From: Methylacidimicrobium sp. AP8
GTDB lineage: Bacteria > Verrucomicrobiota > Verrucomicrobiia > Methylacidiphilales > Methylacidiphilaceae
Assembly (NCBI RefSeq): GCF_903064525.1
Contig: NZ_LR797830.1
Location: 1,426,001 to 1,490,000 of the forward strand
Direction: 5' to 3'
DNA length: 64,000 nt
The notes below the pieces were generated by a model. That model was given only the letters and a program-made list of their open reading frames with translations. It was not told where the DNA came from and ran no database searches. Made by a program: the position numbers and the translations under genes. Below are positions 9,099 through 50,381 of this stretch, piece by piece. Position 1 is the stretch's first letter. The number at the start of each line of letters is the position of its first letter.

Positions 9099-9953
9099 TC
9101 AGGAAAAGACCACCGTCTTCCGGCCGTAGACCAGGATCCGGTTCTCCACCTGCCAGCGGACCGCGCGGGAGAGGACGACCTTCTCGAGATCCTGTCCCTT
9201 CCGCACTAGGTCGGGAACCTGATCGCGGTGCGAGATGCGGACCACGTCCTGCTCGATGATCGGCCCGTCGTCGAGGATTTCGGTGACGTAGTGGCTCGTG
9301 GCTCCGATCAGCTTCACCCCGCGCTCGTAGGCCTGGTGGTAGGGCTTGGCCCCCGAGAAGGCCGGAAGGAAGGAGTGGTGGATGTTGATGATCCGGTTCG
9401 GGAAACGGCCGACCATCGCCGGCGAGAGAATCTGCATGTAGCGGGCGAGCACGACCAAGTCGATCCGGTGCGCCTCCAGAAGCTCGATCTGGCGGGCCTC
9501 GGCCTCCTCCCTGCGTCCGGGCACAATCTCGAAACGGTAGTAGGGGATGCCGCAAGCGGCGGCGATCCACTCGCCCTCGGAGTGGTTGCTCACGATCAAG
9601 GGGATCTCGCAGGCGAGCTCGCCCGCTCGATGCCGGTAGAGCAGGTCGACAAGACAGTGGATCTGGCGGGAGACGAAGACGGCGACCCGGGGCCGCTGGA
9701 AGGAAGAGGCGAGGCGCCACTCCATGCCGAAGCGCCGCGCAATCGGTCCGAAGCGAGCGGGGACCTCCGAGAGATCGAGAGAAAACCCTTCGAGATCCCA
9801 TTCGACCCGCATCAGAAAAAGACCCAGCTCGGCGTCCTGGTGCTGGTCGGCGTGGAGGATATTGCCCCCATGCTCGAAAAGAAAGTCGGCGATCGCCGAA
9901 ACCAGGCCCTTTTGGTCCGGGCAGCTGATCAAGAGCACGGCGCTTCCGGCCAT
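9099..9953 (-). CDS. purU: formyltetrahydrofolate deformylase
   Basis: 284 residues. The N-terminal ACT domain (LISCPDQKGLVSAIADFLFE) is followed by the formyltransferase fold with IPYYRFEIVPGRREEAEARQ, RYMQILS, and the active-site run INIHHSFLPAFSGAKPYHQA with ATSHYVTEILDDGPIIEQD. It hydrolyses 10-formyl-H4folate to formate and H4folate, feeding formate to purine synthesis or to formate oxidation. The ATG at 9953 starts exactly at the ACT domain; the open frame upstream to 10100 is low-complexity and is rejected. It lies upstream of pgm on the same strand with 139 bases between. Confidence 0.97.
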   Translation of the reverse strand: MAGSAVLLISCPDQKGLVSAIADFLFEHGGNILHADQHQDAELGLFLMRVEWDLEGFSLDLSEVPARFGPIARRFGMEWRLASSFQRPRVAVFVSRQIHCLVDLLYRHRAGELACEIPLIVSNHSEGEWIAAACGIPYYRFEIVPGRREEAEARQIELLEAHRIDLVVLARYMQILSPAMVGRFPNRIINIHHSFLPAFSGAKPYHQAYERGVKLIGATSHYVTEILDDGPIIEQDVVRISHRDQVPDLVRKGQDLEKVVLSRAVRWQVENRILVYGRKTVVFS

Positions 9954-46428: not shown

Positions 46429-48492
46429 TCAATCCAGGCAGGAAGAGGAAGGCTCCCGCTCCGGGATCGCGTCGCAAGCGGCCAGCCAGACCGTGGCCGG
46501 ACTGTCGCTCGGCGCTCGGTAATCCCCGCGGGGAGAGAGGGAACCGCCGGTGCCGACCTTGGGAGCATTCGCGATGCAGCTGCGCTTGAACTGGCTCTCC
46601 GCGAAGAAGCGGCGCAGGAAGAGGCGCAGCCACTTCTTGATCTCCGCGATCGAATACTGCGCCCGCGGCTCCCCCCGCGGCCATTCCCCCTGCGTGCAAT
46701 CGTGCCAGGCCGTCCAAGCCAGGAAGGCGACCTTCGCCGGCTCGTACCCGAAGCGGAGAATGTAATAGAGGTGGAAGTCTTGCAGGGAAAAGGGCCCCAC
46801 GACGTCTTCGGTCCGCTGCGCCGGCTGGCCGTCGGTCCTTCCGGGAATCAGCTCGGGGCTGATCTCCGTGGCCAGGATCTCCCGCAGCAGCGCGCTCGTC
46901 TCCTCCCCCAGCGCCTCCCGCTCGGCTTCGGAGGCGATCAGATGCCGGATCAGGGTCTTGGGGACGCTCGCGTTGACATGATAATGCGCCATCTGGTCTC
47001 CCACGCCGTACGTGCACCAGCCCAGGGCCAGCTCGCTCAAGTCGCTCGTTCCCACCACCAGCGCGCCGTTGGCGTTGGCCAGCCGGAAAAGGTGGCTGGT
47101 CCTCTCCCCGGCCTGGACATTCTCGAATGTCGTATCGTAGACCGCCGCCCCCTGCGCGGCCGGATGGCCGATGTCCCGGAGCATCTGCCGACAGCTCGGC
47201 CGGATATCGATCTGGTGCGCCGTGCAGCCCAGGGCCTTCATCAGCCGGTGCGCCTGCGCCAGGGTGCGCTCGCTCGTCCCGAAAGCGGGCATCGTGTAGG
47301 CCAGGACGTTGCTCCGGGGCAGCCGGAGCTGATCCATCGCCCGACAGGCAACCAGAAGCGCTTGCGTCGAATCGAGGCCGCCCGAAATCCCCAAAACCGC
47401 CTTTTGGAGACCAGCGGCCTGAAGGCGCGTGGCCAGACCCTGGACCTGGATGCGGTAGATCTCCCGGCAACGCTCTTCGTTTTTGCGCAGGTCGCTGGGC
47501 ACGTAAGGGAAGCGGTCGTAGCGGCGCGCAAGGAGCAGAACCCCGTCCCGGGCGAGCTCCGCCCGGAAGGAAATGCTCCGAAAAACCTCGATCTGGGCCA
47601 GATGCTGCAAGCGGCACTGGGTGAAGCTCCCTTGGCGACGGCGATCGGCCGCCAGCCGCTCGAGGTCGACCTCGGCGGTGACAAGCTGGTCCCGGTCGAG
47701 GAAACGCTCCGTTTCGACCAGCCGCGTGCCGTTTTCGTAGATCATCCCGTGCCCGTCCCAAGCGAGGTCGGTGGTCGATTCGCCCCAGCCGGCCGCGGTG
47801 TAGACGTAGGCGGCCAGACAGCGGGCCGACTGGTTGCCCACCAGCTCCCGGCGATATTCTTCCTTTCCTACCGTAATGTTGGAGGCCGAGAGGTTGACCA
47901 GCACGGTGGCTCCGGCCAGCGCCGCGTAGCACGACGGGGGAATGGGAACCCAGAGATCCTCGCAGATCTCCACCGCAAACGCAAAGAGCGGCTCGTCCGA
48001 AGCGGCGAAAAGCAGGCGGCTTCCGAACGGGACCGTCTCTCCGCCCAGGAGAATCTCCCGTTCGTGCGCGCACTCACCCGAAGCGAACTGCCGCAGCTCG
48101 TAGAACTCCCGGTAATTCGGCAGATAGGTCTTGGGGACCACCCCGAGGATCCGGCCGCGATGGACCACCGCGGCGCAATTGTAGAGGGCCCCATCGAGCT
48201 CCAGCGGCAGCCCGACGACGGCCACCACGGGCAAGCCGGCGGACGCCTCCCGAACGCGCAGGAGCGCTTCGCGAGCGGCCCGAAGAAGAGCGGATTGAGC
48301 AAAGAGATCCTCGCACGAGTAGCCGCAGAGGCCGAGTTCGGGGAACGCCGCCAAGGCGACCCGCCGGGCCGCCGCCTCTTTTAAAAGCTCGATCGTCCGC
48401 TCCGCATTCGCAGCCGGATCCGCGATGCGCACCACCGGAATTCCGACGGCGAGGCGGACGAACCCGTGGTTGTAGAAATTAAAAAATTCCAC
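46429..48492 (-). CDS. nadE: glutamine-dependent NAD+ synthetase
   Basis: 687 residues. The N-terminal glutaminase of the nitrilase fold supplies Glu ([13 protein letters not shown]), Lys ([13 protein letters not shown]) and Cys ([10 protein letters not shown]). The C-terminal synthetase has the ATP P-loop [34 protein letters not shown] and [15 protein letters not shown]. It amidates deamido-NAD with glutamine nitrogen. The GTG at 48492 is chosen because GAGGAAG precedes it by about seven bases and the protein then begins [16 protein letters not shown]; the frame runs upstream without homology through the broken tail of the FecR gene. Confidence 0.97.
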
Positions 48493-48513: not shown

Positions 48514-48666
48514 ATGGCAAAGGAGCGAGCCGGGCGAAAGCGATTTTTCCCCGAGCGGCGGCCGATTCGGTCCCAGGCCTACCGGCGGCCGCCGCCGTGG
48601 AATCCGCCGCCGTGGAATCCGCCGCGGAATCCGCCGAATTGGCCGCCGCGGAATCCGCCGCCATAG
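48514..48666 (+). CDS. possible small proline-rich ORF, antisense to the FecR tail
   Basis: 50 residues, starting five bases after a near-perfect AAGGAGG. The second half is Pro/Trp/Asn/Arg-rich ([16 protein letters not shown]). It lies antisense to the glycine-rich tail, so its repeats are simply the complement of Gly/Phe codons. The Shine-Dalgarno-like sequence is one arm of a hairpin whose other arm serves nadE. Probably a shadow, listed because of the ribosome-binding site. Confidence 0.15.
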
Positions 48667-49211
48667 GCACCCCGGAAGCCGCCCCTCGGAAGCCCCGGTT
48701 CCCGATCGGTGCGCCGTGGAAGGTCCCGCCCCAACCGCGCATCCCTCCGGCCCGCCCACCTGCGCCTCCGCGCCACGTACGGCCGCCCGCTCCGGCGAAC
48801 CCGCGCCCGGCCGTGCCGTGGAAATGGGAAACCCTCCCCGCCCGGACCACCCCGCCAGGAGCCCGATTCGCTGCGAAAGCCGGCGGCGCCGAACCGGCTC
48901 CAGGAACCGGCCCGGGCTCCCGAGAAGCTTCCTCCCTCGGCCCGGCTTCCCGCGCCGCCCCCAAAATGCCTCCAGCCCCCATTCCCGCTTCCCGCAGCTC
49001 CCGCGAACGAGCGCGAAGCCCCGCCGTTCCGGCGGCTCCGGCCACCCCGCCGAAGTGCCTCCATCCTCCCGCAGCCCCGCCTCCGGCATGGTCGGCGGCT
49101 CCCGGCCCGTGCCCGGTTCCGACCGCGGCTCCCGTGCCGCTCCCCGCATGACCGCCGGCCGCGGGGTGGCTCCCAAGCGGGAGGCTTCGCGGGCGCCGCC
49201 GGCGGTCGCTT
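48579..49211 (-). pseudogene. frame-broken glycine-rich tail of the FecR-domain gene
   Basis: These 633 bases lie directly after the FecR-gene stop. Translation in the minus frames gives Gly/Ser/Arg/Phe/His-rich segments that continue one another only if the frame is changed several times, ending in [17 protein letters not shown] before a stop at 48579. The octapeptide GGWRHFGG appears twice (49046-49069 and 48957-48980), 89 bases apart and so in different frames. The two copies differ at six bases, all third codon positions, which is strong evidence that both were translated. Frame changes fall next to G runs. Either the gene is decaying or the sequence has indel errors. The full gene would end about 86 bases before nadE. 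Confidence 0.55.
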
Positions 49212-50381
49212 TCACCCCGGAGCGCCGCCGGGTCCGGCAGCCCCGCCGTGGATGCCGGCGACATGTCCGGCCGCCGCCGACCCGCTTCGGCTCATGACAT
49301 TCCGCATGTTGTTGATATTGTTGATATTGTTTATATTGCTTATGTTATTTATATTTGTGATGTTCGTCCGGTTATAGAATGCCATTCCGCCCCAGCCCCA
49401 GCCGAACAAGGGCCAGCCGAAACCGAAACCAAACAGCGGCCAGCCGAAACCAAACAGCGGCCAGCCTATACCGATACCGATCCCGATGCCGGGCCAGCCG
49501 AAACCGAAACCCAAGCCGAAGCCCAAGCCCCAGCCCCACGGGTAGCCCCAGCCCCAGGGGCCCCAAAACGGGTAGTAAGGCATGAAGGGGGCGGCCGCAT
49601 AGTAGCCCAATCCCACGCCAGGCCAGCCGGCGTAGCCGTAGGACCACGGGGGCACGGTGGCTCCCACGAAGATGTTGGTCACGTTACGGCCGACGTCGTC
49701 GGAATAGCCGTGGTAGACCGGGTAGTCATCCCACAAGGCGGAAGAAGGAGTCGCCTCCGTCTTCGCGGCCGCCATCTCGTCCGCGTCGCGCTTCTGGTTC
49801 CACCGGTCCCACGCATCCGTCGCCGGAGCATCCAGGATTTGATATTCCGGATCGGTCGTTCCCTGAATCACCATCATCTTTCCCGCCGGCAGGTCCTCCG
49901 ATCCCTGGGCGGAGACGACCCGCGCATCCCCCTTGCGCACGATCGCCGTCGCGGTCTCGCCCTCCACCTTCACCCGGTAGTCCCCTTCCTGAACGGGCTG
50001 GACGCTCGCCCCGGGCGTCCGGATGGCGATGTCGCGCCGGTTGCCGCTGAAAACCGAATAGGTCGCCGTCCCCCGGACCAACTCCACCTGGATGGCGGAA
50101 GGACTCAGGTTGCCGATTCGCAGCTCGCCCTCCTCTCCCAGCCGGACGAAGTTGTTGGAGTCGATGCGCACTTCGGCCCGTGAACCGGGTCCGGTCCGAA
50201 TGCGATCGCCGGGATGGAGCACCTCGCGGGGGGAACCCGGTTCCCAGCGCTCCGATCCCGCCTTCTGCACCGAGAGGGAACCCTGGTAATAGGAAAGCCG
50301 GGCGGTCTCCGAGGAGGGCGCGCCGGCGAGGGATAGGCTCGATACGGCTAAGAGTATGCCGACCAGCGGCAGGCGCTTCAT
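49212..50381 (-). CDS. FecR-domain secreted protein with Gly/Trp and Asn/Ile repeats
   Basis: 389 residues. A signal peptide ([20 protein letters not shown]) is followed by a FecR-like domain: [45 protein letters not shown] and [17 protein letters not shown]. Residues about 255-332 are rich in Gly, Trp, Phe and Pro (three copies of GWPLFG), and about 337-360 is an Asn/Ile repeat ([16 protein letters not shown]) encoded by an AT-rich patch. The stop at 49212 may be premature, since coding-like sequence continues (see 48579-49211). FecR domains mediate signalling in the periplasm, but stand-alone versions of this sort have no known role. Confidence 0.82.

Follow-up and report, generated by a model that had tools for sequence, protein, structure and literature searches.

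The Gly-rich tail of a conserved FecR-domain gene in Methylacidimicrobium sp. AP8 is split by five frame breaks that probably stem from uncorrected sequencing indels

FecR-domain proteins are regulators of sigma factors and have FecI/FecA-like partners; a literature search returned no paper combining FecR, glycine-rich and Verrucomicrobia. Nanopore reads, in the available portions of PMC6325685 and PMC11649196, are described as carrying deletion errors in runs beyond 4–5 bases and at high G+C, Nextera libraries as strongly biased at 74% GC, and frameshifts as left behind after Canu plus Pilon. According to the accessible part of PMC7907005, the genome of AP8 (Methylacidimicrobium thermophilum) rests on Nanopore reads base-called with Albacore, which went through Canu and Racon and then two Pilon rounds that drew on Nextera XT reads; between the Canu contig and the final version it gained 2,733 bases. 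Among the described members of the genus, only AP8 grows best at 50 °C, as far as the available excerpts of the literature tell.

The locus lies in a stretch of 64,000 nucleotides (the window; NZ_LR797830.1 positions 1426001–1490000) of the AP8 genome, which is a single contig of 2,300,970 bases. In window coordinates, three features make up the locus:

49212–50381, minus strand, one-frame part of the gene for a FecR-domain (PF04773), Gly/Trp/Pro-rich protein, 389 residues by translation
48579–49211, minus strand, Gly-rich tail, the same gene continued in three frames as placed by frame-aware alignment with five orthologues
46429–48492, minus strand, nadE-type NAD synthase with a CN-hydrolase domain (Pfam PF02540 and PF00795), conserved downstream neighbour

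The FecR-domain gene starts at 50381 and meets an in-frame stop, TGA, at 49214–49212. Its protein, with a Pfam query begun three codons upstream of the gene start, matches PF04773 at 38.6 bits (E 1.5e-9) against a gathering cut-off of 24, and the G005 orthologue reaches 21.3 bits, just under the same cut-off. A match to the NCBIfam adhesin model Lsa33 (16.1 bits against a cut-off of 420) is far below threshold and was left unused. Of the neighbours of the gene, three were scanned with Pfam; nadE is identified as NAD synthase, and neither of the remaining ones hits any family. The N-terminus appears signal-like by eye, which together with the FecR domain, the W/G/F-rich stretch and the Gly/His tail suggests an exported surface or matrix protein.

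Past the stop at 49212, all three minus-strand frames hold Gly-rich segments. The first-pass annotation had proposed that these segments join only by changing frame, and that they end at GGFHGGGRR plus a stop situated 86 bases before nadE. Both proposals hold, with the segments linked via five frame changes and the last one reading ...GGFHGGGRR followed by TAG at 48581–48579 (minus strand), 86 bases, counted by eye, from the nadE start, a GTG at 48492 likewise picked by eye.

An orthologue search across 40 genomes (AP8 and 39 others), together with a second search across seven genomes of the genus, finds the whole FecR-domain gene in five of six congeners (G001, which is LP2A; G002; G004, which is M. 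cyclopophantes 3B; G005; and G006), with 71–82% identity. In all five, the Gly-rich tail is one open frame of 212–314 codons, measured from 35 codons past the start of the NRTNIT motif, with WSHFGG-type repeats and the terminus GGFHGGGG(G)(H/R)R; none ends at a stop of the 49212 type, so that the check for an uninterrupted tail, suggested by the same annotation, comes out in its favour. Compared with this group, AP8 possesses the tail in split form. The sixth congener, G003, yields in the second search only the last 78 tail residues (82% identity), which lie where a 4,610-base contig breaks off. Furthermore, nadE downstream and the same two upstream genes accompany the gene in all five congeners, some of them seen only in part because the retrieved DNA stops there. 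Because the tail is open in the relatives and five breaks appear against each orthologue, 48579–49211 is coding sequence, and the ancestral gene did not end at the 49212 stop. On the alignments, the terminus of the AP8 segments is the orthologous end.

To place the breaks, the AP8 DNA was aligned, with frame changes allowed, to the five orthologue proteins one by one:

49212–49221, minus strand, frame break 1, adjoining a GGGG run
49165–49168, minus strand, frame break 2, at a CCCC run
49004–49028, minus strand, frame break 3, close to a GGGG run (at 49025–49028 in four alignments, at 49004 in the fifth)
48838–48841, minus strand, frame break 4, at a GGGG run
48671–48686, minus strand, frame break 5, among GGGG runs

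Five frame changes are needed against every orthologue, at nearly the same places, with the position of break 3 varying by 24 bases across the alignments. Modulo 3, four of them equal the loss of one base, and break 4 equals either the loss of two bases or the gain of one. Once the five changes are made, no internal stop is left in the AP8 tail segments. When intact relatives are aligned with one another in the same way, not one of the 20 ordered pairs requires a frame change. The median position of each break lies at most 3 bases from a G/C run of at least 4, a closeness that random placement equals in 0.23% of trials; positions from single alignments lie up to 15 bases from such a run. The TGA at 49212 is probably a by-product of break 1.

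The breaks in the AP8 tail are probably uncorrected Nanopore indels, and the gene of the living strain would then read straight through to ...GGFHGGGRR. Under such an explanation, 48579–49211 encodes the genuine C-terminal tail that belongs to the FecR-domain gene at 49212–50381; early Nanopore reads would leave indels at G/C runs, thereby generating the five frame changes, the first of which would expose the 49212 stop; and polishing would fail locally, where short reads were scarce or badly mapped in a GC-rich, repetitive stretch. Five indels in 640 bases, accompanied by no stop made by substitution, fit error better. Programmed or phase-variable frame changes, through which the tail would be switched or reached via G-run slippage, share with this explanation the location of the breaks at G/C runs, and the protein does look exported and repetitive, traits common among phase-variable surface proteins. 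However, five shifts would be required in one gene, none of the five congeners has any, and the runs are only 4–5 bases long, making this mode of expression very improbable.

The base composition of the tail agrees with residual indels. Its GC content of 0.769 is reached by only 7 of 3834 overlapping 600-base segments in 384 kb of AP8 DNA, one of which overlaps the tail, and the other six form two further patches outside the window. The G/C runs of the AP8 tail are 4–5 long, and among runs of at least 4, those of at least 5 account for 2 of 13, compared with 52 of 98 in the tails of the five orthologues (Fisher p 0.016). Across all GC-rich segments, the shortage of long runs is upheld against G005 (p 0.003) and fails against G001 (p 0.13), which counts against assembly error. 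So does the tail of 3B, a genome known as a Nextera/Illumina-only draft from the part of its description available: this tail is open, though its GC of 0.718 is below that of the AP8 tail. The hallmarks of assembly error, homopolymer indels in GC-rich DNA and shortened runs, are both seen in AP8. Meanwhile, a mean Illumina depth of about 407–813x, computed from the read numbers in the accessible part of PMC7907005, means that a local polishing failure has to be assumed; such a depth should be adequate for Pilon even with bias, which counts against assembly error.

A short repeat in the tail provides a separate view of the broken frame:

49046–49069, minus strand, first GGWRHFGG copy, found by six-frame search
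48957–48980, minus strand, second GGWRHFGG copy, in another frame, with six synonymous third-position differences from the first

Compared by eye, the two 24-mers have six mismatched bases, each in the third position of its codon, just as the first-pass annotation had described; the copies begin at 49069 and 48980. GGWRHFGG has no further copy in the six frames of the 384-kb AP8 stretch. GC-rich DNA does yield Gly/Ala/Arg-rich peptides in several frames, and the segments might in principle be chance products of non-coding DNA unrelated to the FecR-domain gene. Nevertheless, the whole tail aligns with five orthologues, which refutes this origin, and GGWRHFGG never appeared when the tail was resampled 4000 times under a first-order Markov model, so that chance is hardly credible. 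In the same resamples, 20 of 4000 share any 8-residue word with at least four kinds of residue between two frames, a rate of about 0.5% that precedes the demand for all differences to be synonymous. The claim that a single protein was once translated from both copies is supported by the uninterrupted tail in all five whole orthologues; whether "once" or still depends on whether the breaks lie in the chromosome or in the assembly, and the evidence favours the assembly. The case shows that synonymous repeats in two frames can be used to recognize a broken reading frame.

Codon constraint bears on real decay. In the AP8 tail, non-synonymous codon differences exceed synonymous ones in all five comparisons, with ratios of 1.09–1.22, compared with 0.63–0.94 for the tails of six intact pairs treated by the same method. 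This excess is not limited to the vicinity of the breaks and is even near and far from them. The open front part of the AP8 gene has ratios of 0.65–0.90, against 0.51–0.61 in four intact pairs, and since this intact front shows a similar excess, the excess is not clearly special to the tail. It appears to be mainly a property of the AP8 line, and it leaves room for a young pseudogene. In a real recent pseudogene, slippage at G/C runs would have broken the AP8 tail, and the FecR protein would end at 49212. Some non-synonymous excess in the tail points that way, as do the still-open front part and the polishing of the deposited sequence with deep short reads; G/C runs are also natural slippage sites that real indels favour too, and congeners carry many annotated pseudogenes (141 in 3B and 121 in 4AC, in the available part of the records). 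In contrast, the five indels come with no substitution-made stop in the segments, and third positions hold 0.53–0.56 of the AP8–orthologue tail differences, close to the 0.51–0.66 of six intact pairs and to be read against one third without constraint. On account of the ratios of 1.09–1.22, uncorrected indels are held as probable but slightly less so than without them, and the pseudogene as unlikely but slightly less so.

Decay of the tail as a pseudogene is also opposed by breaks of a like kind elsewhere in AP8, in six genes unrelated to this one and in another GC-rich gene. The latter is Pro/Ala-rich and lies in one of the two further ultra-GC-rich patches, outside the window, at about 1506516–1507290 of the contig; one orthologue reveals five breaks in it and another reveals three, the orthologues are open, and all shifts but one fall in DNA of 77–84% GC. 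The other of the two further ultra-GC-rich patches contains no break, so that the expectation of a break in every such patch failed for one of three.

Six further AP8 genes in the 384 kb contain one clean frame break each. Five of the six breaks lie, by eye, at a G/C run of at least 4; four equal one-base losses, and two equal two-base losses or one-base gains. Identity on the two sides is 59–93%, and the mean local GC at the breaks is 0.703 versus 0.651 (P 0.018). These breaks come from a three-genome test with 15 and 14 rows with AP8 as the target (133 and 156 genes), 10 rows with G005 (131 genes) and 4 rows with LP2A (132 genes), from which "STOP" rows (10, 5, 5 and 4) were set aside as a class of probable antisense or start artefacts. 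The AP8 frame-change rows correspond to ten distinct places, six of which were kept as clean after the alignments were read. A place at 9807 in the window was dropped for two shifts and an apparent repeated element, and those at 159568, 272601 and 151978 were dropped because their alignments were ragged and showed stops, additional shifts or low identity. In the same test, G005 shows two candidate frame-change places in 131 genes, 350465 (four AP8 ORFs) and 324500, and LP2A shows no frame-change row in 132 genes. An initial census by tblastn between AP8 and G005 only (55 rows with AP8 as target, 172 genes; 70 rows with G005 as target, 180 genes) was discarded as noisy, many rows probably reflecting over-long ORF starts and antisense ORFs.

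Of these genes, one at about 63822 of the window (minus strand), with 437 residues in G001, has in AP8 one frame change beside a GGGG run, with 59% and 84% flanking identity. Outside the window, the five other single-break genes lie at about 1288053, 1514598, 1515748, 1551994 and 1656175 of the contig and are otherwise like their relatives.

Judged from these comparisons, the assembly rather than the chromosome most likely carries the breaks. That the breaks are real is unlikely; in that case a conserved exported FecR protein would recently have been deprived of its Gly-rich tail in AP8 by clustered G-run slippage, perhaps reversibly. The comparisons restore the true extent of a protein of methanotrophic Verrucomicrobia that is conserved and probably exported. 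GC-rich genes in the AP8 sequence seem to contain indels that were left uncorrected, and gene truncations in this sequence need checking before they are believed.

In Methylacidimicrobium, the orthologues resemble AP8 in the FecR part, the W/G/F-rich middle, the NRTNITNIN motif and the same neighbours, and also in a Gly-rich tail with WSHFGG-type repeats and a GGFHGGGG end; the difference is that their tails form one open frame, whereas the AP8 tail is split by five frame changes. Tail proteins also occur in a sister genus, probably Methylacidiphilum (G010, L011:970-2295; G007, L078). The L011 protein has a W/G/F middle, an NRTTIINN motif and a GGFHGGGGFHR end, matches the G006 protein in the middle and in the tail, and keeps its tail open, unlike AP8. 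A Pfam scan of it gave no match, so that no FecR domain was found; since it shares the middle and tail end of the FecR-domain gene in spite of this, the tail occurs on different front parts. In comparison with the cases in the available portions of PMC6325685 and PMC11649196, the presumed AP8 errors are recognized from relatives. Like those residual frameshifts of Nanopore and Pilon assemblies, the AP8 breaks combine homopolymer indels, shortened runs and broken genes, probably with poor correction where short reads are biased.
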